Below, piece after piece: positions 331 to 63,501 of a stretch of DNA of 64,000 nucleotides. How positions within the stretch are numbered: position 1 is the stretch's first letter; every line of letters begins with the position of its first letter. The notes beneath the pieces are model-generated. The model saw only the letters and a program-made list of their open reading frames with translations. It was not told where the DNA came from and ran no database searches. Where the stretch lies: NCBI GenBank assembly GCA_030710605.1, contig CP092863.1, forward strand, positions 123,550,670 through 123,614,669. The letters run 5' to 3'. This stretch comes from Cordylochernes scorpioides. Lineage: Eukaryota > Arthropoda > Arachnida > Pseudoscorpiones > Chernetidae. Made by a program: the position numbers and the translations under genes.

Positions 331-589
331 TCCATTCTGACCAAAATCTATCCGTGAACTTCACACAGACAGAATAAGGCAATTATATAAGTATATTTAC
401 TTGAAGGTTTTTTTTTTCAGATTGTTCGAATCAATATGTAGCTTATGTAAATAAGATGACCAAACAGTAGTTGCATATATCTTCCACATCGAAGTCGAAT
501 ATCTTGTTTTATGAGAATTATTTTTAATAAAGATTATTCTCTTGTTTTTACACTTTGGAAAAATGAATAAGGAATCTAGGGCCAAGTTT

Positions 590-712
590 CTTATTACAAT
601 TTTTTACTTTTCTAGCTTTCGGGCTAACTTCTAGGTCTCCGTGTTGAAGGGCATCTTAGCCCGAAAGGTCGTGAAATAAAAAATTGTAAAAAGAAACCTT
701 GATTCCTTATTG
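590..712. repeat. Inverted repeat with GAAGGGC...GCCCGAAAG core
   Basis: Arms around CTAGCTTTCGGGCTAA and TTAGCCCGAAAGGTCG flank a short centre. The pattern GAAGGGC, spacer, GCCCGAAAG resembles a hammerhead helix II plus GAAA but lacks an intact CUGAUGA box. The second copy is at about 59255-59377 with small changes. It lies in the intron downstream of exon 3 (minus strand) and probably derives from a Penelope-type terminal repeat. Confidence 0.4.
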
Positions 713-872
713 ATTTTGTCGAAGAATTATTTTTGTTAACGAGAATCCGCGCCATTTTTGTCGCGCTATCCTTGGGTTTGGAATCTAAGGCTGTCTCGGC
801 CTATAGAGAGGTATTGTTACATCAAAAGCTTGTAGGGACAGGATTTATGGGAGTCCAGGAGGTTGTTCTCAC

Positions 873-988
873 CATTTGAGCGAAGTCCCCAACAACAACA
901 GGACCTTCCAGGCAATCCTTTTGTGGAGTCCGGACTTTTCCACCGCTGCGGCCAGAAGGAGTCCGCCCAGGTACATCATGATGGTGTC
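873..988 (-). CDS. SLC13-family Na+/dicarboxylate (citrate) transporter, exon 3, copy A
   Basis: This 116-nt coding exon has acceptor CTGTAG at 989-994 and a GTGAG donor at 872-868. It begins DTIMMYLGGLLLAAAVEKSG and continues with a LHKRIAWKV block, matching the SLC13 segment GGLxxAxAVExxxLHKRIAL after transmembrane helix 2. Upstream phase is 0 (exon 2 ends YMK) and downstream phase is 2 (ends TG). SLC13 proteins import citrate, succinate and other di/tricarboxylates with sodium at the plasma membrane. Exon 4 of this copy would lie left of the window. An identical exon occurs at 59538-59653. Confidence 0.88.
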
Positions 989-1178
989 CTACAGATAATA
1001 ACCGTGTGTTGGAGAAATTTATACAAAATTACCACATATACTATAGCAATACGTTCCTTTTATTGAAATGTTTGAGGTTTCGAACGCAAACACTCTTAGG
1101 TTGACTTTCCAACGCTAAAATATTCTATTTTTTTAGTGTAGTACCTAATTTTAATAAAATAAACGCAAAGCTAGTATA

Positions 1179-1383
1179 TACACTCATGGACAAAAATTTT
1201 GGAAGTTGTACTTTTTAGCATGTATTTCGGGATTGAGACAATAACTCTGAAAGATATTACAGTGACCTTTATTGAAGACACTCGAGATAAACAAGTTTGA
1301 ACAGCCTCTGTCTTCTTCAAAATAATAATAGACGACCGGCGCAATCAAAGACTTTTCACTTCCTTAAGTTTTGTCCTTGAGTA
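1179..1383. mobile_element. Tc1-type MITE, founder form of the 118-bp satellite
   Basis: About 205 bp bounded by inverted ends (CACTCATGGACAAAA on the left, TTTTGTCCTTGAGTATA on the right) between TA dinucleotides. The inside holds one copy of the sequence that forms the 118-bp arrays elsewhere plus a tail with GACGACCGGCG. It appears to be a single-unit, non-amplified form. The second copy is at about 59841-60049. Confidence 0.6.
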
Positions 1384-1495
1384 TATGCGGAAATTCTGCA
1401 TAAATTATCTTAGCAATTCATTAATATTTAAAGCGATGGGAGAGATTGTTGTTTCATGCTATGAGTTGGCCTCTCTGGGATTGTCAACCCATATA

Positions 1496-1990
1496 TACAA
1501 TCATGGACAAAAGTTAAGGAAGTTTCATATTTAAAGCATAAACCTATAGCTGAATGGAATGGCCGGCGACCTCAATCCTATAGAACATGCTATCTGAGGA
1601 GGACGTATATCAGCCCAGGTATCAGCCCGCCAAGAACCACCCAGGAGCTGACAACTTCTCTTGAACCGAAATGGGCTTCTACCCTAAATGAACTCTTGGC
1701 CACTCTATTTCCAGCATGAGACGACGGTGCAAGTGTTGCTTGGCAGTGAGTGACAGTCAAATCCCCTATTAGTCTCGCTGATAACTGGGATTTATATAAG
1801 TCTAAAGTCTTTGATATCGCCAGTCGTCTATTATTTATTTATTTTTTGAGTAAACATAGGAAATTTTGTTCACACTTGGTTATTCGTGTGTCCTCAAAAT
1901 AGATCACTGCAATATCTTTCAGAGTTATTATCTGAATCCCGATATATATGCTGAAAGGTACAACTTCATTAAGTTTTGTCCATGAGTGTA
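1496..1990 (+). pseudogene. Deleted Tc1 element with transposase fossil, copy A
   Basis: The ends resemble the satellite/MITE termini (CAATCATGGACAAAA at 1498, GTCCATGAGTGTA at 1990). Between about 1548 and 1760 a plus-strand relic of the Tc1 C-terminal catalytic region is readable, but stops and a 10-bp deletion near 1571 break it. The other copy (60156-60666) lacks that deletion and still reads WPARSPDLNP, the motif just before the catalytic Glu. This suggests the 118-bp satellite ends derive from a Tc1 element of this family. Confidence 0.6.
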
Positions 1991-2066
1991 TATTGGTTAT
2001 CTCGTATGTCTTCAATAAAGGTCACTGTAATATCTTTCAGAGTTATTGTCTCAATCCCGATATACA

Positions 2067-3485
2067 CACTGCGTGACATTGAAAATGGAACACCAAGAAA
2101 TAGTGGCCAGAAAATTATGCAAATTTCAGGATAGACGCGCCTAACCGAGTTATGCAAATGATGTAAAATGCGCAGCTCTCGTGCGCACATGGAGTAAGAT
2201 ATAAGGGAAGGAACTTGCAGAAAGGACAGTATTCGTGTCGTTATTTCTTCAAGGAAAATCATTGTAGAAATTTTGCTCTTGTGTCAAAAGACACGTGTAA
2301 TAACAGAGAATGCCAGGTCATCGTAAACGGAGGCAGTTCAAGCAGACAGACGCTTTTACGAGGGGCATGGTGATCGGACTGAAAAGGGCAGGTTGGTCCA
2401 TACGTCAAATCGCAGCTGATACACACCTTGGTGCGTCCACGGTGCACCGACTGTGGAGAAGATGGTTGGAACAAGGAAATGTGGCAATTTATAGGAATGT
2501 CGGTGCAACCAGAGTGACGTCAGCACGTGTGGATCGGCGTATCCTTCGACAAGCAGTGGCGGCCCCACAAGCCACTTGTACCGCCATCCTGCAACATGTG
2601 CAAGACACCCTAGATCATTCCATCTCGACCAGAACCATTTCCCGTCGATTGGTTGCTAATGGCTTGCACTCATGCCGTCCGCTAAGAAGACTGCCATTGA
2701 CCCCACCGAATAGGCGCCAACGTTTGGAATGGTGCCGGGCTAGATCGACGTGGATGACGGAATGGCACAGGGTCGTGTTCTCAGATGAGTCGCGTTTCTG
2801 CTTGTCAAGTGATAGTCGCCGTGTACGCGTGTGGCGTCGACGTGGAGAAAGGTCCAATCCGGCAGCAATTGTGGAACGCCCCACCGTGCGACAACGTGGA
2901 ATCATGGTTTGGGGCGCAATCGCGTATGATTCCAGGTCACCTTTACTTTGTATTCAGGGCACTATGACGGCCCAACGATACGTTGATGATGTGCTGCGAC
3001 CGGTGACACTCCCCTACCTTCAGGGGGTACCCAATGTCCTTTATCAGCAGGATAACGCCCGACCGCACACTGCTCGCATTAGCCAACAAGCTCTGCAAGA
3101 TGTACAGATGCTTCCCTGGCCACCGTACTCTCCTGATCTCTCACCAATCGAGCACGTCTGGGACATCATTGGACGCCGTTTGCATGCCTTGCCACAGCCG
3201 CGTTCAGAAGACGAACTGTGGCAAATGGTTGAGAGGGAATGGAGAGCCATCCCTCAGGACGCCATCCGTACTCTGATTGACTCTCTACCTAGACGTGTTG
3301 CTGCGTGCATCGCCGTCCGCGGTGGTCCTACTTGCTACTAAGCCGACGCCGTTCTCGCTCTGTATTATGACTATCATTTTGAAATAAAGATCACTTATTG
3401 TTCGTCCCTGTCTCTCTCTGTCTGCCGAGTTTCATCACTTTCTGGCCACTATTTCTTGGTGTTCCATTTTCAATGTCACGCAGTG
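2067..3485 (+). mobile_element. Complete Tc1-like transposon, copy A
   Basis: 1419 bp with inverted terminal repeats starting CACTGCGTGACATTG on each end, near-identical for over 40 bp. It interrupts a 118-bp satellite unit. The flanks read TACA on both sides, so the target duplication is TA or possibly TACA. It carries one uninterrupted transposase gene (2310-3341) and an AATAAA signal after it (about 3382). All features needed for autonomy are visible, so recent activity is plausible. Copy B is at 60742-62160. Confidence 0.9.
2310..3341 (+). CDS. Tc1-like DDE transposase, uninterrupted, copy A
   Basis: 343 aa, the usual Tc1 length, starting MPGHRKRRQF. The N-terminal third carries two helix-turn-helix DNA-binding domains (WSIRQIAADTHLGASTVHRL at about residues 29-48, then a second HTH before the linker). 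The catalytic triad is visible: Asp in VVFSDESRF (about 158), Asp in YQQDNARPHTA (about 248) and Glu in SPDLSPIEHVWD (about 281). I count 32 residues between the second Asp and the Glu, shorter than the classic 34 of Tc1. No frameshift or stop. It cuts and pastes its element at TA sites. Three residues differ from copy B. Confidence 0.93.
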   Translation: MPGHRKRRQFKQTDAFTRGMVIGLKRAGWSIRQIAADTHLGASTVHRLWRRWLEQGNVAIYRNVGATRVTSARVDRRILRQAVAAPQATCTAILQHVQDTLDHSISTRTISRRLVANGLHSCRPLRRLPLTPPNRRQRLEWCRARSTWMTEWHRVVFSDESRFCLSSDSRRVRVWRRRGERSNPAAIVERPTVRQRGIMVWGAIAYDSRSPLLCIQGTMTAQRYVDDVLRPVTLPYLQGVPNVLYQQDNARPHTARISQQALQDVQMLPWPPYSPDLSPIEHVWDIIGRRLHALPQPRSEDELWQMVEREWRAIPQDAIRTLIDSLPRRVAACIAVRGGPTCY

Positions 3486-3501
3486 TACATGCTGAAAGGT
3501 A

Positions 3502-4828
3502 TACGAGGTGTGTTCAAAAAGTATCGCGACTTTTGTGTTTTTTTCAAATATTATTTATTTATTCATGAATACCTATTTTTTTCCCCTTCAAAGTAATCCC
3601 CATGAGATATTATACACTTGTGCCAACGGTTTTTCCAATCTTCGAAGCACTTCAAAAAATCATTTTTAAAAAATCTTTTTCAGCTCCTCCTTCGATGCCG
3701 TCTTTATCTCGTCAAGCGTAGCGTAACGTCGTCCTTTCATGGGCCTCTTCAGTTTAGGGAACAAGAAAAAGTCACAGGGGGCCAGATCTGGGGAATACGG
3801 TGGCTGCGGCATCATTAGTGTGTTGTTTTTGGCCAAAAAGTCGCGCACAAGCAACGATGTGTGAGCAGGGGCGTTATCGTGGTGCAAAAGCCAATTTTTG
3901 TTCTTCCACAAATCCGGACGTTTCTGGCGGATTGCTTCGCGCAAATTGCGCATAACTTGTAGGTAATATTCCTTATTGACCGTTCTACCCTGTGGCAAGA
4001 ACTCATGATGCACCACGCCCCTGCAATCGAAGAAAACTGTCAGCAAAACTTCCACATTCGACCGAACTTGGCGCGCTTTTTTCGGTCTTGGTTCGTGCGG
4101 CAGCTTCCATTGAGATGATTGAGCTTTGGTTTCCACGTCATAACCATAAACCCACGCTTCGTCACCAGTTATGACCCTCTGGAGCAAATTTGGGTCGTCG
4201 CGGACAGAGTCCAACATCTCATTAACAATGTTCATGCGATGCTGTTTTTGGTCGCAATTGAGCAATTTTGGTACGAATTTCGCGGCGACCCGTCTCATGC
4301 CCAAATCATTGATAAAAATCGAATGGCACGAGCCAATCGATATGTTTAGGTTCTCAGCAACTTCTCTAACGGTGATTCGATGATTGGCCAATATCATTTT
4401 CTCCACTTCATTAATTTTTTCGTCTGTTGTTGAAGTGCTCGGGCGTCCGGCACGCTCTTCGTCGTTCACATCTTCTCGGCCTTCTGAGAACATTTTGTAC
4501 CACCGATAAACGTTGCTTCGGTCCAAGGTAGCTTCTCCGTATGCCACAGTCAACATTCGGAATGCATCCGCGCACTTAATTTCGTTTTTCTCACAAAATT
4601 TGATACAGGTTCTTTGATCCATTTTTTTTAATAGGTAAAAATCGAAGACGATCCAAAACACCTGCAAGCAAAGCAGCTGTCAACAATTAAGTGAACATTC
4701 AAAATGGCCGAGCTTGTCGGCATAAGTGAGAGACATGAGTACCAACATAAAGCCACAAAAATATCGAAATTCGAATATACGTAACCCGCGAAAATTCAAA
4801 AGTCGCGATACCTTTTGAACACACCTCG
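3502..4828 (-). mobile_element. Mariner transposon (irritans-like ends), copy A
   Basis: Inverted ends of about 28 bp (CGAGGTGTGTTCAAAAAGTA and its complement) flank the element, with TA on both sides. It is inserted in the same satellite unit as the Tc1 element, only about 16 bp from it. It carries a minus-strand transposase that is frameshifted near its 3' end. Copy B is at 62177-63499. Confidence 0.88.
3666..4622 (-). pseudogene. Mariner transposase (DD34D), 3'-frameshifted, copy A
   Basis: Starts MDQRTCIKFCEKNEIKCADA at 4622, the typical mariner start; an in-frame upstream Met exists but is not conserved. It has an HTH N-terminus, then catalytic VITGDEAWVYGYD, HHDNAPAHTS and YSPDLAPCDFFLFPKLK, with 34 residues between the last two Asp. 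The frame ends early at EELKKIF in a T-rich run (about 3666-3683). The canonical tail (NDFLKCFEDW... ending near GDYFEG) continues in another frame. The same lesion is in copy B, so it predates the duplication and neither copy should encode a full protein. Confidence 0.88.
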
Positions 4829-4830
4829 TA

Positions 4831-5320
4831 CAACTTCATTAAGTTTTGTTCATGAGTGTATATTGGTTATCTCGTGTGTCTTCAATAAAGGTCACTGTAA
4901 TATCTTTCAGAGTTATTATCTGAATCCCGATATACATGCTGAAAGGTACAACTTCATTAAGTTTTGTTCATGAGTGTATATTGGTTATCTCGTGTGTCTT
5001 CAATAAAGGTCACTGTAATATCTTTCAGAGTTATTATCTGAATCCCGATATACATGCTGAAAGGTACAACTTCATTAAGTTTTGTTCATGAGTGTATATT
5101 GGTTATCTCGTGTGTCTTCAATAAAGGTCACTGTAATATCTTTCAGAGTTATTATCTGAATCCCGATATACATGCTGAAAGGTACAACTTCATTAAGTTT
5201 TGTTCATGAGTGTATATTGGTTATCTCGTGTGTCTTCAATAAAGGTCACTATAATATCTTTCAGAGTTATTATCTGAATCCCGATATACATGCTGAAAGG
5301 TACAACTCCATTAAGTTTTG
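4831..5320. repeat. 118-bp satellite array, about four units, copy A
   Basis: Tandem units contain TATATTGGTTATCTCGTGTG, then an AATAAAGGTCACTGTAATA block, CCCGATATACATGCTGAAAG and TTAAGTTTTGTTCATGAGTG. Copy B (63502-63873) holds exactly one unit less, judged by the 118-bp change in offset. The final CATGAGTGTA is the terminal repeat of a Tc1-type MITE, so each unit carries a transposon end. Confidence 0.85.
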
Positions 5321-5390
5321 ACATCTCCTTATCGCGCAACTGAAAGTTGCTGATGGCTTGCGCCATCTATCGGGTACAGGTACAGCTTGC

Positions 5391-5432
5391 ACCACGCTGA
5401 TGAGGGCCAACAGCCCGAAACGCGTCCGTGGT
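5391..5432 (+). ncRNA. Type I hammerhead ribozyme 1
   Basis: All core elements are present: helix I ACCACG/CGTGGT (5391-5396 with 5427-5432), CUGAUGA (5397-5403), helix II GGGC/GCCC with loop CAACA (5404-5416), GAAA (5417-5420), a minimal helix III in ACGCGU (5420-5425) and cleavage site GUC ending at 5426. The self-complementary ACGCGU would give a longer helix III in a dimer, as reported for short-stem animal hammerheads. Cleavage is predicted after C5426. Confidence 0.88.
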
Positions 5433-5729
5433 TAGCTTTTCTTGATTAATCAAGAATGGGTATTTGGCCAATTCTGGAATAATTAAAAATCAACGAGAAT
5501 AGTTGATATTTATTCCGATAGATGGCGCAAGCCATCAGCAACTTTCAGTTGCACGATAAGGAGATGTCTTTTTCTTAATTTATGCACCTTATCCCAGTAC
5601 AATGTTATATTTGTACTATTTTTTCACATTGTGTAGCGTCCTCACGCAATTCTGGCCTTAACTACCCGTTTCATGATTTTTCAGGATGCCTTAATGACCA
5701 ATTTTTTTGGTCGTTGAGATACAGCTTGC

Positions 5730-5771
5730 ACCACGCTGATGAGGGCCAACAGCCCGAAACGCGTCCGTGGT
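5730..5771 (+). ncRNA. Type I hammerhead ribozyme 2
   Basis: Identical to the ribozyme at 5391-5432 over helices, CUGAUGA, GAAA and the GUC cleavage site, exactly 339 bp downstream. Cleavage at both sites in one transcript would release a 339-nt RNA with the ends needed for circularisation. Confidence 0.88.
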
Positions 5772-5962
5772 TAGCTTTTCTTGATTAATCAAGAATGGGT
5801 ATTTGGCCAATTCTGGAATAATTAAAAATCAACGAGAATAGTTGATATTTATTCCGATAGATGGCGCAAGCCATCAGCAACTTTCAGTTGCACGATAAGG
5901 AGATGTCTTTTTCTTAATTTATGCACCTTATCCCAGTACAATGTTATATTTGTACTATTTTT

Positions 5963-6095
5963 TCCATTAAGTTTTGTTCATGAGTGTATATTGGTTATCT
6001 CGTGTGTCTTCAATAAAGGTCACTGTAATATCTTTCAGAGTTATTGTCTCAATCCCGATATACATGCTAAACTTCCTTTGTCCATGAGTGTAACG
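5963..6095. repeat. Remainder of the interrupted 118-bp satellite unit
   Basis: Resumes at TCCATTAAGTTTTG, the duplicated target, and runs through TATATTGGTTATCTCGTGTG to a terminal GTCCATGAGTGTA. It ends about 40 bp before the donor end of exon 2. Confidence 0.75.
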
Positions 6096-7724: not shown

Positions 7725-7976
7725 TATGTATATTTATCAATTATTCATATCTATTTATTCCTATATTTATCATTATACAATCGTATTTATATTTATTCTG
7801 TATTTAACCTTATATAATCTTATATGGACGTTGTAATAAATCAGCTTCAATCTCAATCTCTCTCTCTCTCTTGTTATCAGAGACGACATCTAGACAAAAA
7901 AAGAAATATCATTGGTTGTAAAAAAATACATCTAGGGAGAGCTTTCTTGTATAACTCTTTTATAAAGTGTGAAAAA

Positions 7977-8073
7977 ATAGTACAAATGTAATATTGTACT
8001 GGGATAAGGTGCATAAATTAAGAAAAAGGCTTCTACTTATCGTGCAACTGAAAGTTGCTGATGGCTTGCGCCA
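7977..8073 (-). mobile_element. Retrozyme-type fragment without ribozyme
   Basis: The minus strand reads GGCGCAAGCCATCAGCAACT, then TGCACCTTATCCCAGTACAA, the 3' half of the monomer seen at 5860-5962. It is 5'-truncated, so no hammerhead remains. Confidence 0.65.
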
Positions 8074-8728: not shown

Positions 8729-9119
8729 TAAGAAATCTCTCCCTAGTTTTTCCCTCACAAATGTTACTTTGTGTCTCCATGTCGTATGATAGCAAGTCCT
8801 ATTGGCACATCTCTCCAATCAAACATACCGCTGTCCACCAAACAATGGAATACATTACACCATGACAGTTCTACCGCGCTGGGTTTACATAACTTATATA
8901 CATATGGGGCAGATTTGCATAGCTAGTTGCATAGTTTGTATACCTTTCATGCATATTGTAGAACTTGTGTGTTACATAGAGTTTTCATATATATATATAT
9001 CAGATTTGCGTAACTAGTTAGGCCCCACTCGGATATAAAATCAAACAAAAACTTTTCATAACTATCAAATACCATCTCTTGAAATGAAGATAGAATGTAT
9101 TTAGTTCTTTAAAATAAAA

Positions 9120-9200
9120 GACACACTTCGGCCAGAAATTTGTCTTTATTATCTCGACGTTTCGGCAAAAATCTTTTGTCCTCTCGTCAGGAACAAATAA
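9120..9200 (-). repeat. Hammerhead-like Penelope terminal-repeat fragment
   Basis: The minus strand reads CTGACGAGAGGACAAAAGAT, then a T-rich return arm, GCCGAAACGTCGAG and AATAAAGAC. CUGACGA, a hairpin and GAAAC-GUC follow hammerhead order, but helix II next to the core pairs poorly. Related copies: 17551-17592 (minus), 17633-17674 (plus), 40965-41010 (plus). Downstream sequence to about 9290 resembles 40870-40940. Confidence 0.5.
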
Positions 9201-9699
9201 AAATTAGGGCATTTGACAAGGCATTAAAAATTCTTCTGAGGTTGCAAGGGCGTTCTCACGCTATTTTCCAAATATTTACTGGCCGAAATGTCTTTCATTC
9301 TAAAACTATGGATGCCGACGAGGCAACCTTTATCTTCATATGTTTTGTTAAAAAAGACTTTCGTGAGTTTTCTCATAATCTGAGAGCAGACGACCAGGGC
9401 GTGAAGAAGTATTTAACGGCATTCAATGTTTACATATTGCCGTGATATCGTTTGTTATGTAAACACTTATCAGACCAGACGTAATGTCTGGCCAATTTAT
9501 AATGCCAGCCAATCACAGCACTTTCAATTCCTCATTGGTCACTTGGTGTTTTTGCCCCTTTCTACGTCATACGGCGTAGTAATAACGGAGTTACATGAAA
9601 TAACGCAGGGGACGCAGTAAAACTTTGTTAAAATGAAGATGTTCTGAGATTTTTTTAGCTAAAAATTATATTTCTGCATAGGGAAACGTTAGATACAGA

Positions 9700-12090: not shown

Positions 12091-12566
12091 TAAAATAGTT
12101 TTAATTTTCCATATAAACCTAATATATATGGCATAGTTTTATTGACATCCCGTCAAAATATAGGCAAAAGTGCACAGTCTGCACTATTTCGGTCAACGAC
12201 CGAAGAGCCCACGCTAGAAATAAAAGTAAAATTTCTATTTTTCATCACTAAGAAACCTAATATATATTTATGTAATTAGGACATACTACAACATAGCTAC
12301 AACATCACGAATATAAAAAACAATACATTAAAACCTCACTCTAAAAGATGACACCTAGTTACAAAGCCAATGTGTGTAAACATTTGAAATAAGATATAGT
12401 TTAAAAAAAAAAAGCTCTCTCTCAATGTGATATTCAATCCTGGAACCTGATTGGCTAATATTAACTGTGTATTTAACCATTCCATTGTACTAAGGACTCT
12501 CTAGGAGTGAGAGAGAAATTAGTGAATTATTAACATATCAGAATTATAAATATATGCAAAATAGTA

Positions 12567-13128
12567 ATATAAACTCATAGACAAAACTTAAGGAAGTTGT
12601 ACCTTTTAGAATGTATATCGGGATTGAGACAATAACTCAAAAGATATTACAGTGACCTTTATTGAAGAAACAAGAGATAACCAATATACACTCATGGACA
12701 AAACTTAAGGAAGTTGTACCTTTCAGCATGTATATCGGGATTGAGACAATAACTCTGAAAGATATTACAGTGACCTTTATTGAAGAAACACGAGATAACC
12801 AATATACACTCATGGACAAAACTTAAGGAAGTTGTACCTTTCAGCATGTATATCGGGATTGAGACAATAACTCTGAAAGATATTTCAGTGACCTTTATTG
12901 AAGACACACGAGATAACCAATATACACTCATGGACAAAACTTAAGGAAGTTGTACCTTTCAGCACGTATATCGGGATTGAGACAATAACTCTGAAAGATA
13001 TTACAGTGACCTTTATTGAAGACACACGAGATAACCAAGTGTGAACAGCCTCTGTCTCATTGAAAAAAAATAGACGCGACTGGCGATATCAAAAACTCTT
13101 CACTTCCTTAAGTTTTGTCCATGAGTGT
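12567..13128. repeat. 118-bp satellite array, reverse orientation, about four units
   Basis: Repeats of CACTCATGGACAAAACTTAA, TATATCGGGATTGAGACAAT and ACAGTGACCTTTATTGAAGA end in the unique tail AATAGACGCGACTGGCGATA and a terminal GTCCATGAGTGTA. The overall form is that of the MITE at 1179-1383 with its inner unit multiplied. Confidence 0.85.
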
Positions 13129-14872: not shown

Positions 14873-15497
14873 CTTATATATAATCTTATTTTGAAAATAG
14901 AGCAATCCATAAATAAATCTTTAATTAAAAAAGCATATATTGGATCAAAATATCATTTTTTGTCAATATTTCAGTTGGCTGAACGGCAATCTTTTTCAAG
15001 GTATTACAAAATATTAATGTATATCAACAACAACAACAATATATATAATCTTATATGAACGATTAAAAAAACAGTTTCAATCTCAATCTCTCTTTAAACA
15101 CTGTTTAAACTCTCTTTAGACTCTGTACACGCTTGTTCGGTGATACATATTGTAACAACGTATTTATTATTTTATTAACAGAGTATTATTTTTTATATTT
15201 TGCTATACTCTGTACACTTCTCTCTTTTGCTTATCTTTTGTTTATCATTCAAAGTTTGTTCGTGTCCGCGGACCCAATCCGACCTAACCTGCCTCTTCCC
15301 TAACAGAGATACTGTCCCTAGCCTCTCCAGCCTGGTGATAGTGGTTTTATATATTCCACTTTACGCGGCCATTGGGGCTCAAAAATCATTTATTTTGGTT
15401 AGCAGCCCCGTAAATAAAGATATTTTCTCTATAGTTTGTTCATGCCTCAAATAAATTGTTGTCTCATCCTGAAGTTGGTCTACTCCTATTTTTCCAC

Positions 15498-15591
15498 GTG
15501 GCAATATACTACAATAGGAAGGATACAGAGAAGATTAGCATGGCCCCTGTGCAAGGATGACACGCAAAATCGTGAAGCGTTCTCTCACTTT
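15498..15591 (+). ncRNA. U6 snRNA pseudogene
   Basis: From GATACAGAGAAGATTAGCA through ATGGCCCCTG and CAAGGATGACACGCAAA to CGTGAAGCGTTC the sequence is almost identical to animal U6. That includes the ACAGAG box and AGC triad that pair with the 5' splice site and U2. The first bases (the 5' stem-loop GTGCTTGCTTCGGCAGC) are missing or diverged and the 3' U tract is replaced by CTCTCACTTTAAAAAG, so it is probably a retropseudogene. U6 3' ends are often joined to LINE insertions. Confidence 0.85.
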
Positions 15592-17260: not shown

Positions 17261-17520
17261 TTTCAACTCGTGTTTTATTAGCGAATCATTATGTTTTAAT
17301 CTGTAGAAGAACGTTCGTACCCGAAAGCTATAGATTAAAAAGGTTTTTGAAAAAATACTTTGCCCTGAAGGTCTGAAATTTTGACTCAAAATGCTTGTTG
17401 TTGTTGTATTAGACCTCAACAATTTCATAAAGCAGTAACATACCAGTAAATAGAAGATCAACATCTCACAGAGACACCATCGTAAAGATAGAGGCCGGCA
17501 TTTATATTTCTTGAAAATAA

Positions 17521-17707
17521 AGATACTTCGGCCAGTAAATCTTTTTATTACCTCGACGTTTCGACAAAAAGCTTTTATCCTCGTCAGGAGCAAACAAAAT
17601 TAAAACATTTGGCAAGGTGTTAAAAATAATTTGCTCCTGACGAGGACAAAAGCTTTTTGTCGAAACGTCGAGGTAATAAAAAGATTTACTGGCCGAAGTA
17701 TCTTTAT
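17521..17707. repeat. Head-to-head pair of hammerhead-like Penelope fragments
   Basis: Two arms of about 70 bp face each other: minus 17592-17521 and plus 17633-17707, both ending CTGGCCGAAGTATCTTTATT. The plus arm has CUGACGA (17637-17643), a GACAAAA/TTTTGTC hairpin, GAAA (17662-17665), ACGU and GUC (ending 17669) with a 3-bp helix I (CTC/GAG). Hammerhead order is complete, but an extra G sits next to helix II. Inverted copies of one terminus are typical of Penelope insertions. Confidence 0.6.
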
Positions 17708-18109
17708 TTTCAAGAAACCTTACACTATATCATCTAGACAACTCTCCACGATAACGCAAGAGAGAGGCCCAACAATCCTTAAACTATACCAACAACATCT
17801 CAACAACCCCCATACGATAACGGTACATCACACCAGTGTGAAGAGGACCTAGCAACACCATAAATAACAGCAGAAATGTCCCACAATAACTCACAAAGAC
17901 CATCTCAACAGCAGCACAGAAGCAGAAAGTGATCCATTACAATCTCCCAACAACACTACCAAAGTCCCAACAACACTACCAACAGAGCGACACAATACTA
18001 CAGCATCATAAGGATGTTTTCCCACCACAATATTATCTTGACAACCCTATACACAGCAAAGAAGCATAAAGAGGGTCCTTACAGCTCCTAATAACACTAC
18101 CAATCAAGG

Positions 18110-34548: not shown

Positions 34549-35235
34549 ACACTCATGGGGATAATACTTAAGGAAGTTATACATTTTAGCATATATATAT
34601 ATATCGGGATTCAGACAATAACTCTGAAAGATATTACAGTGACCTTTATTGAAGACACACGAGATAACCAATATACACTCATGGACAAAACTTAAGGAAG
34701 TTGTACCTTTCAGCATGTATATCGGAATTCAGACAATAACTCTGAAAGATATTACAGTGACCTTTATTGAAGACACACGAGATAACCAATATACACTCAT
34801 GGACAAAACTTAAGGAAGTTGTACCTTTCAGCATATATATCGGGATTCAGACAATAACTCTGAAATATATTACAGTGACCTTTATTGAAGACACACGAGA
34901 TAACCAATATACACTCATGGACAAAACTTAAGGAAGTTGTACCTTTCAGCATGTATATCGGGATTCAGACAATAACTCTGAAAGATATTACAGTGACCTT
35001 TATTGAAGACACACGAGATAACCAATATACACTCATGGACAAAACTTAAGGAAGTTGTACCTTTCAGCATGTATATCGGGATTGAGACAATAACTCTGAA
35101 AGATATTACAGTGACCTTTATTGAAGACATACGAGATAACCAAGTGTAAACAAAATTGTTTCTGTCTCCTTAAAAAAATAGACAACCGGCGACATCAAAG
35201 ACTTTCCATCTCCTTATGTTATGTCCATGAGAAAG
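34549..35235. repeat. 118-bp satellite array, reverse orientation, about five units
   Basis: Five repeats of CACTCATGGACAAAACTTAA ... ATATCGGGATTCAGACAATA ... ACACACGAGATAACCAATAT, ending with the unique AATAGACAACCGGCGACATC tail and a GTCCATGAG terminus. Unit-to-unit change is only a few bases. Confidence 0.85.
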
Positions 35236-35714: not shown

Positions 35715-36050
35715 AGAACGACATTTGAAAATTATCCCGCATGTGTTTCTTTTGAACGAAAAATCAAAATTTATTTTAAGGAGAAATAACGATTATTTCT
35801 AACCTTATGGATGAGGTATATGTCCAGGGTAGCCTAGTGGACATGGCATCTGCCCGGTAAGCGAAACACTGTAGGTTCGATTCCCATCCCTGGACACTTT
35901 TATTTTTCTGTTTATCATTACTCTTCACAATTCATCCTTTCATACCTAATCCATAAGGTTATAAATAATCGTTATTTCTCCTTGAAATAAATTTTTATTT
36001 TTCGTTGAAAAGAAACACATGCGGGATGGTTTTCAAATGTCATATTTAAT
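35715..36050. mobile_element. Long-TIR element carrying a tRNA-like gene
   Basis: Two arms of about 100 bp face each other: left 35715-35815 (CATTTGAAAATTATCCCGCA, GAAATAACGATTATTTC) and right about 35948-36050 (GGTTATAAATAATCGTTATT, CATGCGGGATGGTTTTCAAA). The central spacer holds a tRNA-like sequence at 35822-35896. No transposase. The arms suggest a non-autonomous DNA transposon; the tRNA cargo is unusual. Confidence 0.65.
35822..35896 (+). tRNA. tRNA-Thr-like sequence (GGT) inside the long-TIR element
   Basis: Perfect 7-bp acceptor stem GTCCAGG/CCTGGAC, D arm GCC/GGC, anticodon loop CCGGTAA (anticodon GGT), B box GGTTCGATTCC and a T-rich run (TTTTATTTTT) after it. The anticodon and T stems have mismatches and position 33 is C. 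It could be transcribed by Pol III, but a working tRNA is doubtful. Its closest relative is 244-316. Confidence 0.5.
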
Positions 36051-37589: not shown

Positions 37590-39904
37590 AAACGGTAAAA
37601 TCTTCCCAATTATATGCGTGGTAAGGACGAAATATTCAGGAGATGAGTTTCTTTCAACACTTTATTAGGACATCAAGCTTTCGGGCACAGCGTGGCCCTT
37701 CTACAGGATCAAATGTATAAGAAAAATGATACACTATATACACGAAGAATAAATCTGCCTATGTATTATTAGAAATTAGTTGTAAAATTTTTAAAATAAT
37801 CGGTAATACTTAGAATTTTTTTGTTTAAAAAGAATATCGAGACATAAGCAAATTAATAAAATTTGTTAAGAAGAATAATATACGAATATTACAAGGTATT
37901 AAGATAAAAGCGTAATAAGACTAAAAGGACGTTCCTACGGTTCGACGGAAACTGTGATAAAACTATGAGTATTTAAAAGGTAAAACAGTTTGAAAAGGAT
38001 ATTAAAATAAATGAACAAAACAGGGAATTCATGGGGTACATCGATGGCTATTTATGTAATAAGCTTATATACGGCTCAGGTACATCAACATGTCTGTTTA
38101 TACTATTATATCTCAGAGATAGCAAGGCCTCGACAACCAATCTTTTGTGTTTATGTGGTATGTTAGAATAATGTGATCTTGGATCAGTAGTGTTGAAACT
38201 ATGTCCTGTCTGTGATATGTGCTGGACAATAAGTGATTTCGGATCGTTATGTCTGATGTTTCTGTCGTGTTCCTGTATTCTGTCTTTAATGTAACGGCCA
38301 GTTTCACCTACATAAACACTGTCGCAATCGTTGCATTTTATGGAATAAACAGCATTGTTTCTTTGAAGAGTGTTCCGAGGTGTGTTGTCTTTAGTAATAG
38401 GGTTCCTTAAGATAGTGCCTATACTAGGGGTGTTGGAAAAGTAAGTGCGGATGCCGAAGTTCTTTAGTTCTCTAGCTATTTTTATGCTTTGCAAGGAATA
38501 TGGTATTGTGCAGATGGATTTATAGTTGTCATATATCTTGGTGCGGGATGGGTTATGGAAATGCCTTAAAATAAAGTTTTTAGGATAACCAGAGGACATT
38601 AAATTTGAAATTATGTTATTTGTTTCCCTTTGCTTTGACTCCTCAGTGTTACAGTGGGTATATATTCTCTTGGACAAGGTTCTTACCGTATTGATTTTAT
38701 GGCTTAATGGGCAGAAAGATGAGAAGTTTATATACATTGGGTGAAAGGTGGGTTTATAATAGACTTCAGTATTATATCTATTGCGTGTTTTTGTTATGCG
38801 TATGTCCAAAAATGCCAAAGAGTCACATGTTTCAGTCTCGGAAGTAAAGTCTATGTCTTGATAGAAATTATTTAATGTGTTGAGTATATCATTAAAGGCG
38901 TTAATTTGATTATAGCAAAGACGTCATCTATGTATCTAGACCAGATTAAAATGTCGTCTGGGAAGATATTAACTATACGTTTATCTATCTTGCGCATCAC
39001 TATTTCTGAAAGGGGAGAGGATAATGGGCTACCCATAGGGGTGCCTTTGGTCTGTTTGAAGTAAGCTTGGTTGAATTTGAAAATACTATGGCAAAGACTG
39101 ATTTTGATAAGTGCAATGAGTTTGGAAATGGTGTCTGTGGGGCAACCTTGTTCAATTAGAAATTCTGTGGTGCAATCTAAAATAAGCTGGTGGGGGAGAC
39201 TGGGATATAAATTAACAACATCGAATGAGACCATGATGGTGTCAGGTGTAACTGTTGTTTGTTGTAACTTACCTATGAAGACAGGAATGGAGGAAATGGT
39301 CGTCGGGGAGTCACTATCTCTGAGCATCGGGGCCAGTATTTTGGCTAGATAAGTTGCTAACGGGGCTGCAGGGGAGAGGTGGTACGCGATGATGGGTCTT
39401 AGTGGGATACCTTCTTTGTGTAATTTAGGTAGGCCGTAAATATAAGCTTTTGACATTATATTGGACAAAAAGTTTTTGCATTCTTCGGAACTAATGATTT
39501 TCTTCCTCAGCAGATTGTTGATTTCTTTTTTAAAAGAACAAGTTGCGGTATTCTGATCATCTATGGATATGGGGGTAAACGTGAGCGGGTCAACAAGGAT
39601 TGTGTCCATTTTGGAAATGTATTCGGATGTGTTCATAATGACTGTAAGCGAACCTTTATCAGATCTAGTGATGGTTATATCTTTGTTCGTTGATAGTGAG
39701 CGCAATACATTTTTGTTGATTTGGTAAGTATGTTGGGTTTGGTTGTGGTCGCTAAGGACTGCTGCGGTGTGCTGTCTGATTCTAAACTTCTCTTGATGAT
39801 TTAAGCGGAAAATGGAAGATTCTACCCCTGCTATGATTGTTATGGCATCAGTTTTAGCTTGAGGTCTATATTTAAGTCCTTTAGATAAGTCCTTTAGCAT
39901 ATAC
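37590..39904 (-). mobile_element. Penelope-like retroelement (GIY-YIG clade), 5'-truncated
   Basis: A 2.3-kb minus-strand element encoding RT then GIY-YIG endonuclease, inserted in a 118-bp satellite unit (flanks CCCGATAT and ATACATGC). Penelope elements transpose by target-primed reverse transcription. The 3' region (38047-37590) contains a hammerhead-like relic near 37672-37708: CTGTAGA in place of CUGAUGA, then GGGC/GCCC, GAAA and GCTTG. The 5' end is lost and joined directly to satellite. Confidence 0.88.
38048..39904 (-). pseudogene. Penelope-type RT + GIY-YIG endonuclease, one frameshift
   Basis: RT region in order: ITRSDKGSLTVIMNTSEY, YIYGLPKLHKEGIPLRPII, VSFDVVNLYPSLP, KGTPMGSPLSSPLSEIVM and the catalytic SRYIDDVFAI near 38940. 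A one-base change near 38915 shifts the frame, after which DSLAFLDIRITKTRNRYNTE continues to the linker. The C-terminal endonuclease has VYSIKCNDCDSVYVGETGR followed by a DRIQEH block (GIY-YIG variant Y...VYVGET, Arg). It ends PEPYISLLHK. The open frame up to 39972 reads into satellite and is not genuine there. Confidence 0.88.
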
Positions 39905-40535
39905 ATGCTAAAAGGTACAACTTCCTTAAGTTTTGTCCATGAGTGTATATTGGTTATATCGTGTGTCTTCAATAAAGGTCACTGTAATATCTTTCAGAGT
40001 TATTGCCTGAATCCCGATATACATGCTAAAAGGTACAACTTCCTTAAGTTTTGTCCATGAGTGTATATTGGTTATCTCGTGTGTCTTCAATAAAGGTCAC
40101 TGTAATATCTTTCAGAGTTATTGTCTCAATCCCGATATACATGCTGAAAGGTACAACTTCCTTAAGTTTTGTCCATGAGTGTATATTGGTTATCTCGTGT
40201 GTCTTCAATAAAGGTCACTGTAATATCCTGCAGAGTTATTGTATGAATCCCGATATACATGCTAAAAGGTACAACTTCTTTAAGTTTTGTCCATGAGTGT
40301 ATATTGGTTATCTCGTGTGTCTTCAATCAAGGTCACTGAAATATATTTCAGAGTTATTGTCTGAATCCCGATATACATGCTGAAAGGTACAACTTCCTTA
40401 AGTTTTGTCCATGAGAGTATATTTGTTATCTCGTGTGTCTTCAATAAAGGTTACATCTTTCAGAGTTATTGTCTCAATCCCGATATACATGCTGAAAGGT
40501 ACAACTTCCTTAAGTTTTGTCCATGAGTGTATTTT
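39905..40535. repeat. 118-bp satellite array right of the Penelope element, five to six units
   Basis: Repeats of TATATTGGTTATCTCGTGTG ... CCCGATATACATGCTGAAAG ... TTAAGTTTTGTCCATGAGTG. One unit near 40440 lacks about 8 bp. 40540-40780 has no recognisable feature. Confidence 0.85.
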
Positions 40536-40837
40536 ACTGCATATTGTACATGTTTATATGTACTGGAGTATAAATAGACAAAAGACAATACTCCGCTAAT
40601 AAGCTTTCTTACTTTTGAAAATGGAAACAGAGGGTCGCAGAAGCGTCCAATGACAATTAACCCTTTAAAATGTTAACAGAATTTACAACTTGATCCCAAC
40701 CTACAATTATGGTGTGTTCTTTATAACCAACCTTGTGCTGCCTAAAATATTCAAAAACCTTCCAGTGTCCCTAAATTTCGGTAATCATAAAGATAGAGGC
40801 TGCCTGGCCGGAAGTCATAGTTCTTTAAATTAAAGAT

Positions 40838-41035
40838 ACTTCGGCCAGTAAATCTCTTTTATTGTCTCGATGTAGATGTTGTACAAAATTTGAAATGTCG
40901 CGTGAGAACGCCCTTGCAGCCTTAGAATAATTTTTAACGCTTTGCCAATTTTTTTTATTTTTGTCCGCTCCTGACGGAGGACAAAAGATTTTTGTCGAAA
41001 CGTCGAGACAATAAAAAAGATTTACTGGCCGAAGT
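40838..41035. repeat. Hammerhead-like Penelope fragment with opposite arm
   Basis: The plus strand has CTCCTGACGGAGGACAAAAG, TTTTTGTCGAAACGTCGAG and AATAAAAAAGATTTACTGGC at 40965-41027, facing CGGCCAGTAAATCTCTTTTA at 40849. The core reads CTGACGG, so the last core A is changed or displaced; likely inactive. Confidence 0.5.
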
Positions 41036-41217
41036 ATGTTTAATTTGAAAAACTAAATTTCGGTTGTTATTAGTGTCCATCAAGTCGACTTTTGGTAACT
41101 CTATGGACAAATATTCTCCAATTTGATCAGTTAGTAACCATCACTCTCATCTAGTGACCTTCTGGTAGCTTTCTTGATCCCTTCCAGCCAGCCCATTGCA
41201 GGTCTTCCTCTCTTCCT

Positions 41218-43639: not shown

Positions 43640-43765
43640 TCTTCAAAGTGAAAAAAAAAAGTACAAATGTAAAATTGTGGATCAGGTGGAAAAATTGAGA
43701 AAAAAAAAAGGCTTGCGCCATCAGCAAATTTTAGTTGCACGATAAGGAGATGTCTTTTTATCAAT
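43640..43765 (-). mobile_element. Retrozyme-type fragment, decayed
   Basis: The segment TTGCGCCATCAGCAAATTTTAGTTGCACG, split here as GCGCCATCAGCAAATTTTAG and GTTGCACGATAAGGAGATGT, plus the GTACAAATGTAAAATTGT end, match the 3' half of the ribozyme element but in scrambled orientation. 43100-43640 shows no gene. Confidence 0.5.
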
Positions 43766-43879
43766 ATTCTCCTTAAAGTTTTTTTTTTACAGTAGAACCT
43801 CTCATAAGAGACATAACTAGGAAAACTCCTGGTACCTCCTGGAGACGGTTGCCTGTCAGAACTGATGTTATATCGGTCA

Positions 43880-49865: not shown

Positions 49866-50535
49866 ACTCACGAACAAAACTTAAGTGGAAAGTCTTTAAT
49901 GTCTCCGGTCGTCTATTTATTTTTTTCTTCATTTTGTTCACACTTATTTATTTCTTGTGTCTTCAATAAAGGTCACTGTAATATCTTTCAGAGTTATTGT
50001 CTCAATCCCGATATACATTCTGAAAGGTACAACTTCCTTAAGTTTTGTCCATGAGTGTATATTGGTTATCTCGTATGTCTTCAATAAAGGTAACTGTAAT
50101 ATCTTTCAGAGTTATTATCTCAATCCCGATATACATGCTGAAAGGTACAACTTCCTTAAGTTATGTCCATGAGTGTATATTGGTTATCTCGTGTGTCTTC
50201 AATAAAGGTCACTGTAATATCTTTCAGAGTTATTGTCTCAATCCCGATATACATGTTAAAAGGCACAACTTCCTTAAGTTTTGTCCACGAGTGTATATTG
50301 GTTATCTCGTGTGTCTTCAATAAAGGTTACTGTAATATATTTCAGAGTTATTGTCTCAATCCCGATATACATGCTGAAAGGTACAACTTCCTTAAGTTTT
50401 GTTCATGAGTATATATTGGTTATCTCGTGTGTCTTCAATAAAGATCACTGTAATATCTTTCAGAGTTATTTTCTTAATCCCGATATATATGCCAAAAGGT
50501 ACAACTTACTTAAGTTCTGTCTATGAATGTAAATG
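49866..50535. repeat. 118-bp satellite array, about five units
   Basis: Begins with terminal ACACTCACGAACAAAACTTA and the GTCTTTAATGTCTCCGGTCG end, then units of TATATTGGTTATCTCGTGTG ... CCCGATATACATGCTGAAAG. The last unit is diverged. 50540-50790 has no recognised feature. Confidence 0.85.
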
Positions 50536-52450: not shown

Positions 52451-52579
52451 TTCTATTCTATCCATTATATGGAAATATTCAGATAGAAGCAGATCTTGGA
52501 GTACACCGAATTCAAGACCCCGCACAACCATGTAAACACAGTGTTCAAAATTCGAAACTATTTTAAAGGCGTAAGATTC

Positions 52580-52882
52580 TTTTTGAAATTAAACAATTTC
52601 TACTGCCCTTACTGCAATGGAAAAATTAAAGGGAGGGCCTGGCTCATCAGTGGTAAACCCTCCCAGCTCAAAGCTTATGTCCATAGTTCTTCTAAAATAC
52701 CCATTCCAAGAGTCTACCAAGAGTATCACTATAAAAGGAAGTTCCAAAAATGCAATATAACAGCGGTATGGTAGATTAAACTGGCGAAACCGCTGGGAGG
52801 GTTCACCACTGATGAGCCAGGCCCTCCCATTAATTTTTCCATTGCAGTAAGGGCAGTAGAAATTGTTTAATTTCAAAAAGAA
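52580..52882. mobile_element. Foldback element, complete
   Basis: Near-perfect arms of about 88 bp: 52580-52668 and 52790-52880, outer ends TTTTTGAAATTAAACAATTT, inner ends GGGAGGG...CCCTCCCAGC. The central spacer is about 120 bp. The family recurs at 21840, 34325, 36525 and 58437. Confidence 0.82.
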
Positions 52883-53299
52883 TCTTACGCCTTTAAAATA
52901 GTTTCGAATTTTGATAACAGATGGCGCGCTAGTGCATCATATTATAAATGTAAATACAGTGTAATGTGAAAAACCTGTACATATTATCCATTGTAAATAT
53001 CATGAGTTAGGTTTGAGAGGCACCTAATAAACTTATTTTGGAACTGAGATAGAAGCAGGTCCAATTTACATATCTCCCATTTGCTGAATATTTCCTCAAC
53101 ATATAACCGATATGTAAATATATTTGAATTCAAATGTAAAAATTCAGGAGGATGATATATTCATTGACCAAAAGCGGACACCTATCCATTAAAGAAATCG
53201 ATTAAGACAATGCATTCTGTAACAATAAATTTCTGGCAATGTATTTCTTTTTTTTTATATATAAATCATCAAATATTATATCTACAGCCCTTACTGCAA

Positions 53300-54177: not shown

Positions 54178-54515
54178 TACACTCATAGACAAAATTTAAG
54201 GAAGTGGAAAGTCTTTGATGTCGCCGGTCGTCTTTTGAAATCATTTTTAAGGAGACAGAAAATTTTGTTAAAACTTGGTTATCTTGTGTGTCTTCAATAA
54301 AGTTCACTGTAATATCTTTATGAGTTATTGTCTCAATCCCGATATACATGCTAAAATGTACAACTTCCTTAAGTTTTGTCCATGAGTGTAGATTGGTTAC
54401 CTCGTGTGTCTTCAATAAAGGTCACTGTAATATCTTTCAGAGTTATTGTCTCAATCCCGATATACATGCTGAAAGGTACAACTTCCTTAAGTTTTGTCCA
54501 TGAGTCTAATTCGTG
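54178..54515. repeat. Tc1-MITE with two satellite units
   Basis: Starts ACACTCATAGACAAAATTTA with GTCTTTGATGTCGCCGGTCG, ends GTCCATGAGTCTA, and holds two 118-bp units. An intermediate between the one-unit MITE (1179-1383) and long arrays. Confidence 0.78.
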
Positions 54516-54740
54516 TTTAAGTGTTCCATTTCTTTAAAATAGATGGCGAATTATTGCCTTATGTATAAATATGTTAGTTTCCTACCAAATTCCACAACAT
54601 TTGACATTTCTGGATAAAACTTTGACAAACCGTTTAGAGATAGGTCTGTAAGAAGTCAATCAAAATTTGGACACTGTAGTATGCAAATTAACCTAATTAC
54701 CTTGTAATGAAGTAACTTAAAAAAAACTTGTATAATATTA

Positions 54741-54978
54741 AGAAAAAGGCATCTCCTTATCGTGCAACTGAAAGTTGCTGATGGCTTGCTACATCTATCG
54801 GAATAAATATCAACTATTCTTGTTGATTTTTAATCATTCCAGAATTGGCCAATAGTTGATATTTATTCCGATGGCGCAAGCCATCAGCAACTTTCAGTTG
54901 CACGATAAGGAGATGCCATTTTCTTAATTTATGCATCTTATTCCAGTACAATATCACATTTGTACTATTTTTCAACTT
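54741..54978. mobile_element. Retrozyme-type copy with inverted halves, no ribozyme
   Basis: The left half (minus) runs GGCATCTCCTTATCGTGCAA to CCAGAATTGGCC; the right half (plus) runs AATAGTTGATATTTATTCCG through GGCGCAAGCCATCAGCAAC to TTTGTACTATTTTT. Both are the 3' part of the monomer, head to head. 5' inversions like this recall Penelope insertions. Confidence 0.65.
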
Positions 54979-55869: not shown

Positions 55870-56150
55870 CAAATCATACATCTCATATATATATTTTGGC
55901 CTTAAATACCTATTTCTTGGTTTCTCAAGAAGTCACTGGGACCAAAAATCTTTTTTGGTCGCAGTGGTACAGCCTAATCCACGCTGACGAGCTCCAACAG
56001 CGCGAAACGCGTTCATGGATGGCTTTTCTTGATTTATCAAAAAATTGGATTGTCCAAATATCAGGGAACAGGCTAAATCAATGATAGTTGATTTCTGTTC
56101 CACCAGATGGCGCTATGCCTTCTGAAAAGCACATGTGCTCCTGGTCAGGA
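55870..56150 (+). mobile_element. Second-subfamily ribozyme retroelement
   Basis: Follows the order of the 5600-5960 monomer but is diverged: CCTTAAATACC, TTTTTTGGTCGCAGTGGTAC, ribozyme, TTTCTTGATTTATCAAAAAA hairpin, GATAGTTGATTTCTGTTCC and CAGATGGCGCTATGCC. A single copy is visible next to the gap. A separate lineage of the same element type. Confidence 0.6.
55977..56020 (+). ncRNA. Type I hammerhead ribozyme, second subfamily
   Basis: Helix I ATCCACG/CATGGAT with one mismatch (55977-55983, 56014-56020), CUGACGA (55984-55990, position 7 may be any base), helix II GCUC/GCGC with loop CAACA and one mismatch, GAAA (56004-56007), ACGCGU and cleavage site GUU (ending 56013). Helix I bases differ from the first subfamily yet still pair, evidence of maintained structure. 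Confidence 0.75.
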
Positions 56151-57360: not shown

Positions 57361-57510
57361 AATATTTATGAGGGCCAACAGCCTGAAGCGTGTACGTGTG
57401 TGGTTAGCTTTTATTGATTAATCAAGAAAGGGTATTTGGTAAAATTATAGAATAAGTTTTAAAAATCAAAGAATAGTTTATATTTATTCCGATAGAGATG
57501 GCGCAAAATA
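57361..57510 (+). mobile_element. Decayed ribozyme element
   Basis: TTATGAGGGCCAACAGCCTG, AAGCGTGT and GTGTGGTTAGC align with the hammerhead of 5391-5432, but CUGAUGA is UUAUGA and GAAA is GAAG. Downstream TTGATTAATCAAGAAAGGG and CCGATAGAGATGGCGCAA match the monomer. An inactive old copy. Confidence 0.65.
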
Positions 57511-59062: not shown

Positions 59063-59537
59063 TCGTAAAAAATTTTTTTTTTTTCAATTGCTCGCATCCA
59101 TATGTAGCTTATGTAAATAAGATGACCAAACAGTAGTTGCATATATCTTCCACGTCGAAGTCGAATGTCTTGTTTTATGAGAATTATTTTTAATAAAGAT
59201 TCTTTCCTGTTTTTACACTTTGACAAAAAGAATAAGGAATCTAGGGCCAAGTTTCTTATTACAATTTTTTACTTTTCGAGCTTTCAGGCTAATGTCTAGG
59301 TCTCCGTTTTGAAGGGCATCTTAGCCTGAAAGCTCGAAAAATAAAAAATTGTAAAAAGAAACCTTGATTCCTTATTGATTTTGTCGAAGAATTATTTTTG
59401 TTAACGAGAATCCGCGCCATTTTTGTCGCGCTATCCTTGGGTTTGGAATCTAAGGCTGTCTCGGCCTATAGAGAGGTATTGTTACATCAAAAGCTTGTAG
59501 GGACAGGATTTATGGGAGTCCAGGAGGTTGTTCTCAC

Positions 59538-59653
59538 CATTTGAGCGAAGTCCCCAACAACAACAGGACCTTCCAGGCAATCCTTTTGTGGAGTCCGGAC
59601 TTTTCCACCGCTGCGGCCAGAAGGAGTCCGCCCAGGTACATCATGATGGTGTC
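59538..59653 (-). CDS. SLC13-family transporter, exon 3, copy B
   Basis: Sequence identical to 873-988, with acceptor CCTGTAG and donor GTGAG. It splices in frame to exon 4 at 57805 (TG plus G makes Trp). Exon 2 of this copy would lie beyond the right edge. Perfect identity while introns differ slightly is compatible with selection or with very recent origin. Confidence 0.9.
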
Positions 59654-62160: not shown

Positions 62161-62176
62161 TACATGCTGAAAGGTA

Positions 62177-63499: not shown

Positions 63500-63501
63500 T
63501 A

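Follow-up and report, generated by a model that had tools for sequence, protein, structure and literature searches.

Head-to-head copies of an animal-type retrozyme in a pseudoscorpion genome mostly end at two internal sites of the hammerhead monomer

Introduction

A short insert within satellite DNA of the pseudoscorpion Cordylochernes scorpioides, lying in a 64,000-nt stretch of contig CP092863.1 (hereafter the window), carries two hammerhead motifs and raises the question of what kind of element it is, how it is copied into new genomic sites, and by whose enzyme. Animal non-LTR retrozymes are described as tandem monomers of 150-450 bp with type I hammerheads, a G+C content below 45-50% and no ORF in their small form (Cervera and de la Pena 2020, PMC7229834), and are further characterized by target duplications of more than 4 bp, a highly self-paired RNA and the lack of an LTR, a tRNA primer site and a polypurine tract (PMC7229834). 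According to a 2020 review, they display no conserved motif from which an autonomous partner could be deduced (PMC7761336), and Penelope-like elements have already been named as candidate movers of retrozymes (PMC7229834, PMC7761336, PMC8969392, PMC11722881). Here we describe the insert, its relatives in the window and in further loci of the same genome, and a regularity in the ends of its head-to-head copies that bears on the choice among possible mechanisms.

Results

The insert has animal-type retrozyme structure and a previously overlooked inverted arm

The insert, referred to below as copy A, spans positions 5321-5964 and shows the structure of an animal-type (non-LTR) retrozyme placed inside an array of 118-bp satellite units. 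The initial annotation had proposed two identical type I hammerheads spaced 339 bp apart, which we recover within two 248-nt copies at 5378-5625 and 5717-5964 with a period of 339; the cores, there called complete, are exact at 5397-5426 and 5736-5765, and the insert is indeed ORF-less in that no ORF of at least 150 aa overlaps it. The 14-bp target-site duplication, TCCATTAAGTTTTG, likewise stands, with copies at 5307-5320 and 5963-5976, and is independently supported because the 118-bp unit stops at 5320 and the next unit restarts at 5977. The animal-retrozyme label proved well chosen, as each feature of animal non-LTR retrozymes (PMC7229834) that was tested on sequence was found: hammerhead type, tandem monomer length, low G+C, absence of a long ORF, target duplication and self-pairing of the RNA. 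What the first reading overlooked is that the left 54 nt of the insert form an inverted arm, which can be read, from its sequence, as a cDNA whose synthesis began on the opposite strand of the target. With the monomer numbered from the first base 3' of the predicted ribozyme cut (m1 = 5427), the features of the locus are as follows:

5307-5320, forward strand: left target-site duplication TCCATTAAGTTTTG, with which a 118-bp satellite unit ends
5320-5373, reverse strand: inverted arm, antisense of monomer nt 142-89 and 98% complementary to 5515-5568
5374-5381, forward strand: putative inner junction of two cDNAs, a short filler or GTACAG repeat
5381-5446, forward strand: type I hammerhead 1, predicted cut after 5426
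5382-5720, forward strand: first full 339-bp monomer
5427-5765, forward strand: 339-nt RNA bounded by the two predicted cuts, a candidate circle
5568-5583, forward strand: site 2 (m142-157), the outer end of one arm in mixed copies
5616-5630, forward strand: site 1 (m190-204), the outer end of the other arm
5720-5785, forward strand: type I hammerhead 2, predicted cut after 5765
5721-5964, forward strand: second, partial lap, which stops at site 1 (..GTACTATTTTTTC)
5963-5976, forward strand: right target-site duplication, whose first two letters may be the element's 3' end

The hammerheads are distinctive and the predicted RNA is strongly self-paired

A degenerate 30-nt hammerhead pattern allowing up to 3 mismatches occurs at 4 places in the window and at none in 100 dinucleotide shuffles, and a hammerhead pattern run against viral contigs gave 0 matches. 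The Rfam covariance search suggested in the initial annotation had a divided outcome: in a 1.8-kb search Hammerhead_HH9 gives each of the two copies 26.5 bits (E 0.00068), and over the whole window it matches one copy (E 0.024), but a score of 26.5 lies under the gathering score of 52, so that a default scan of the window reports neither hammerhead. Folded as a circle, 5427-5765 has a minimum free energy of -108.0 kcal/mol, compared with -68.3 +/- 5.1 for 100 shuffles and below every one of them, and the predicted fold contains ribozyme helices I and II; the G+C content is 0.395. By analogy with the retrozyme family, the RNA between the two cuts could exist as a 339-nt circle. When the 35-nt core was collected across loci L009-L044 with up to 4 substitutions, 91 of 117 instances were identical to copy A, a degree of identity that shows either recent spread or upkeep of the apparent ribozyme and does not by itself prove activity.

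In its helix III of one pair with a palindromic tetraloop and its unit of about 330 nt the hammerhead is like the newt and axolotl satellite hammerheads (Amex1, PMC7229834), the likeness being drawn on these features alone and the hosts being other than a pseudoscorpion.

Further copies in the window

Copy A occurs a second time, as the same insertion, at the window edge, and beyond A and A' the window holds five further copies or fragments (B-F):

63873-64000, forward strand: copy A', the same insertion as A within a segmental duplication, running past the window edge
7968-8073, reverse strand: copy B, a 3' fragment that covers m97-202 and stops at site 1, with no recognised arm or duplication
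43653-43775, reverse strand: copy C, old, made up of an inverted arm and a brief forward stretch that stops at site 1, with an imperfect duplication
54729-54972, forward strand: copy D, a site-2 inverted arm together with a forward stretch to site 1, with duplication AACTTGTATAATAT
55893-56113, forward strand: copy E, a member of a second retrozyme family, 71-72% identical, with hammerhead core CTGACGA
57368-57506, forward strand: copy F, a decayed fragment, 84%

The arm of A' (63873-63926) is identical to the monomer at 54 of 54 positions and lacks the single mismatch of A, so the arm was probably a perfect copy at the time of insertion. In copies C and D, as in A, the inverted arm stands on the 5' side, and a 3' end consisting of GTACT, a T run and C is common to A, B, C and D.

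The segmental duplication itself (408-5447 and 59075-64000, about 99% identical) comprises Tc1-like and mariner transposases, a satellite array and the retrozyme, and may be an assembly duplicate. Arrays of the 118-bp satellite number at least seven and occur in either orientation (4828-5320, 12566-13038, 34600-35143, 39899-40532, 49948-50531, 54275-54505 and 63499-63873). Elsewhere in the window we noted a tRNA-like gene (35823-35895) inside 35720-36041, flanked by 100-nt inverted repeats that are 93% complementary; a pair of 123-nt inverted repeats, 98% complementary and spaced 124 nt apart (52545-52914); and a U6 snRNA match at 15492-15591 (86.9 bits), whose 5' stem-loop is aligned with gaps.

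Most head-to-head pairs combine one end of each kind

A genome search, in which 40 of 898 candidates were scored by likeness to copy A, returned at least 159 matches, those of the window among them. The loci examined comprise 36 clusters among the matches listed, seven 10-kb extensions and the window, and are not a random sample. Tiling these loci with the monomer and removing 8 flagged duplicates yielded 44 distinct head-to-head pairs, 29 of which are mixed, with one outer end at m140-162 (site 2, around nt 153) and the other at m190-208 (site 1, around nt 200). Within the loci examined, none of the 44 pairs has two equal ends and none is arranged tail to tail. The remaining 15 have an end elsewhere than at site 1 or site 2 and are made up of cargo-bearing, truncated and second-family copies, copy A' at the edge of the window, copy C (mixed as judged by eye), the second copy in L018, and L010/L048, which represent one locus twice. 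The second L018 copy has the same inner junction as the first and is a probable local duplicate. By eye, the second-family copies in L051 and in L042, where another insertion is nested, show one end of each kind. A further 27 blocks have a single orientation; they include the one-armed copies L009, L016, L043 and B as well as fragments and 3' repeats that belong to cargo-bearing copies. Separately, L047 contains another head-to-head palindromic stretch (about 2130-2340) that is unmatched by the retrozyme monomer.

Since L025 and L026 have identical flanks by eye and count as one event, there are at most 28 independent mixed insertions, and with the exception of this pair the inner junctions differ from one mixed insertion to the next. 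Were each site chosen independently and at even odds, 28 mixed pairs out of 28 would have a probability of 2^-28; the copies, however, were not randomly sampled. The pairing of unlike ends also bears on a snap-back origin, in which a single cDNA folds back and copies itself: self-priming has been proposed for head-to-head Penelope copies of a rotifer (PMC3846280), but it does not predict that site 1 should be joined with site 2 in 29 mixed and 0 equal pairs, and we regard it as very unlikely here.

Target sites were tested in 22 mixed insertions under the rule that a duplication has at least 9 bp and is not a simple repeat. Duplications of 11-14 bp were found at 14 of them, while six lie within TA-rich repeats, where a duplication is uninformative, and two (L011 and L035) have none. 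Mismatched flanks of the 14 gave at least 9 bp in 22 of 182 comparisons and at least 11 bp in 8 of 182; without the filter, at least 9 bp was reached in 24 of 37 cases, against 19 of 100 in mismatched flanks.

Fixed outer ends, uniform duplications of 11-14 bp and inverted arms are also what a DNA transposon or MITE copied as DNA would have, with the hammerhead as a passenger. Such an element should show mirror-image terminal repeats around a constant interior, which is not what we find: lap number and inner junction vary by insertion, and the ends, offset by about 47 nt, are not mirror images. We reject this class on the varying junctions, the hammerhead is kept (the 91 identical cores among 117 given above), and transposition as DNA is in our estimation scarcely credible.

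The two arms of an insertion appear to be copied from one RNA over several laps

The two arms of the same insertion share 43 of 134 variant columns (25 insertions), whereas arms of different insertions share 4.7% of 4,074 columns, and in L024 the arms run to 6.0 and 4.1 laps. Together these observations support multi-lap reverse transcription of one RNA, as far as sequence comparison can tell. The ends near nt 153 and nt 200 differ from the ribozyme cut, which places the start of reverse transcription inside the RNA. Multi-lap arms are hard to reconcile with a cleaved linear monomer as template; a circle could yield them, and so could an uncleaved multimer.

The latter case, a linear multimeric transcript in whose transposition the hammerhead has little weight, draws on experiments with an Anolis Penelope protein in vitro, where hammerhead mutants left insertion unchanged and the dominant template was unprocessed RNA (PMC11167929). 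Against it, several laps on both strands and variants shared between arms fit a circle simply, and retrozyme circles were found in all three animal species studied (PMC7229834), so that we hold a linear template to be somewhat unlikely.

In folds of the whole monomer and of m101-205 alike, site 2 falls within a hairpin loop closed by GATAAGG/CCTTATC. This first-family hairpin is absent when the shorter RZ-1 piece is folded alone, and absent also in the Penelope-type copy P3 described below. At the same place the second family (E, L042, L049 and L051) retains the hairpin as GGTCAGG/CCTGACC, in which two pairs are changed on both sides by eye; we count this in favour of the mechanism proposed below.

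Some copies carry genes between retrozyme repeats

In L046, L048, L049, L050 and L051 an ORF-containing stretch of about 1.5-4.0 kb breaks the monomer at one constant position, separating m292-298 from m282-285, and these copies thus depart from the ORF-less state of the animal non-LTR retrozyme. In L045 and L047 the 5' cargo junction alone is visible in the stretch examined, and the cargo ORFs of L045, L047 and L049 gave no accepted Pfam match. The clearest unit is L051, a single insertion from its site-2 arm to its site-1 end with a 12-bp duplication, ATAAATATTAAT, recognised by eye; it carries a LINE whose ORF2, open over 889 aa, has AP-endonuclease and reverse transcriptase domains and whose gag-like ORF1 is split over two frames. 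Judged by its coding sequence, this LINE may be a passenger or a partner and is another possible enzyme source.

LINE 5' inversions are known, and in classical twin priming two primers give rise to an inverted 5' part that lies upstream of the forward part, with microhomology at the inner joint and start points that form no fixed pair. The retrozyme copies resemble this outcome in their presumed two primers, inverted 5' part and microhomology at the inner joint, and a LINE with an AP endonuclease, perhaps that of L051, could be imagined to move the retrozyme and to leave its inverted arms as ordinary twin-priming inversions; L051, in which gag-like and AP-endonuclease/reverse transcriptase coding lies between retrozyme repeats as one unit with one duplication, speaks for such a link. 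In contrast to LINE inversions, however, the two retrozyme arms mostly span the same sequence and start at two fixed sites, and the L051 insertion does not end at the LINE's own 3' end. A LINE as mover therefore seems to us quite unlikely. Within the collection of papers searched, none joined retrozymes with twin priming.

Penelope-type copies in the window share the head-to-head plan

Three Penelope-type terminal repeats (pLTRs) and the remnant of a Penelope-like ORF are found in the window:

17467-17720, forward strand: pLTR copy P1, a head-to-head copy whose inverted arm alone bears a tail, with a minimal hammerhead-like core and no clear duplication
40780-41055, forward strand: pLTR copy P2, a head-to-head copy whose inverted arm alone bears a tail, with a minimal hammerhead-like core and the duplication TAAATTTCGG
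9105-9339, reverse strand: pLTR copy P3, minimal hammerhead-like core, head-to-head, inverted-arm tail, no clear duplication
38048-39978, reverse strand: Penelope-like ORF remnant with reverse transcriptase and GIY-YIG domains, 5'-truncated at the satellite, its frame entering the satellite from about 39899

All three pLTR copies are head-to-head. The letters that follow the direct end of P3 may be a shortened tail, and a one-sided tail is clear in P1 and P2 only. In the further loci examined, one partial pLTR match (L015) was found besides the window's three.

The Anolis Penelope protein (Poseidon PAc) cuts and extends both target strands and prefers AT-rich DNA (Frangieh et al. 2024, PMC11167929). 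Reverse transcription there begins at two adjacent internal RNA sites, the 'tail' being the stretch between them (PMC11167929); with the ribozyme cut 26 nt into the ORF and starts at 111-118 (PMC11167929), the start lies 85-92 nt past the cut. In P2 the direct end lies 51 nt and the tail end 51+36 = 87 nt past the ribozyme cut, and in P1 the corresponding distances are 48 nt and, for the tail motif, 72 nt, below the Anolis range; the P1 tail end is placed by motif since no clear duplication fixes it. The offset between the two ends is thus 36 nt in P2 as compared with about 47 nt in the retrozyme, and the retrozyme and P1-P3 have in common a head-to-head plan with offset ends. A typical Penelope insert, as described in work on Adineta vaga, has two direct pLTRs and one inverted, with the tail optional on one inverted pLTR (PMC3846280).

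The likeness of plan extends to several traits described for Penelope elements: a hammerhead (in PAc), an inverted 5' arm and a tail-length offset between the ends, as well as two internal starts of reverse transcription, use of both target strands and AT-rich targets (PAc, PMC11167929; Adineta, PMC3846280). Of these, the inverted 5' arm and the tail-length offset are the Penelope hallmarks that the retrozyme copies themselves display. Unlike Penelope elements, the retrozyme has no reverse transcriptase or GIY-YIG coding, its ribozyme lies farther from the start sites, its hammerhead has a full core and its arms run to several laps. The insert gave no match against 120 Penelope-type proteins and, having no ORF of at least 150 aa either, is not classed as a Penelope element.

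Direct homology between the start region of the retrozyme and the Penelope tails of the window is at best weak. For RZ-1 against P1, P2 and P3, the start-site likeness score was reached by 139, 406 and 11 of 500 dinucleotide shuffles, respectively, and by 299, 431 and 51 of 500 plain shuffles; for RZ-2 the dinucleotide counts were 2, 45 and 11 of 500.

As to coding sequence, the Penelope ORF of the window has its nine closest relatives in Cordylochernes scorpioides, at 37-53% identity, and a LINE ORF of the window is 92% identical to a Cordylochernes scorpioides protein over the whole searched part. One 118-bp satellite array borders the truncated Penelope ORF. A hammerhead belonging to this remnant was sought and rejected, the 5' end of the ORF being missing and its 3' flank holding a look-alike only. 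A hammerhead-like remnant, CTGTAGAAGGGCC..GCCCGAAAGC, lies at 37650-37705 on the reverse strand, downstream of the ORF.

Discussion

The best explanation of the locus, and one that we consider probable, is a non-autonomous retrozyme of the animal type whose single RNA circle would be reverse-transcribed by Penelope-type machinery, with the two target strands each extended from an internal site of their own. It is like the animal non-LTR retrozymes described in PMC7229834 in its type I hammerhead, tandem monomer (some 170-400 nt in those elements), low G+C content, lack of an ORF, duplication of more than 4 bp and paired RNA, and unlike them, as they are described there, in its pseudoscorpion host, its head-to-head copies with two fixed ends and its gene-carrying copies.

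Mechanistically, transcripts of tandem copies would be cut at the two hammerheads, probably most efficiently as a hammerhead dimer formed through ACGCGU, and a host ligase would circularise the 339-nt monomer, as expected from the family (PMC7229834). A Penelope-type reverse transcriptase/endonuclease would then cut an AT-rich target with the stagger of 11-14 nt that the duplications display, and both target strands would be extended on the same RNA, one from site 2 (about nt 153) and the other from site 1 (about nt 200). Several laps per cDNA may follow before the two cDNA ends would be joined via short overlaps or filler, the latter step being suggested by the inner junctions, and the circle, the ligase and the enzyme by analogy with PMC7229834 and PMC11167929.

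More tentatively, and with slightly less than even confidence, we propose why the ends should be paired: a single reverse transcriptase dimer seated on one circle would have to start one cDNA per site and one per cut strand, which would leave exactly one end of each kind. The same rule would make the Penelope 'tail' a footprint of obligate start-site pairing, and retrozymes the non-autonomous partners of Penelope elements. For the Anolis protein in vitro, the start site is reported to be no different between the two strands (PMC11167929). Among the titles and abstract openings examined from the literature on Penelope tails, head-to-head copies and hammerheads, we found no statement of the two-end rule.

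The two-end rule offers a clue to the autonomous partner of animal retrozymes and evidence for the existing Penelope guess, in a form that can be counted in any retrozyme-bearing genome. The rule would record how enzymes of the Penelope type might work on the two target strands simultaneously, and the cargo-bearing copies add that retrozyme repeats can carry genes.
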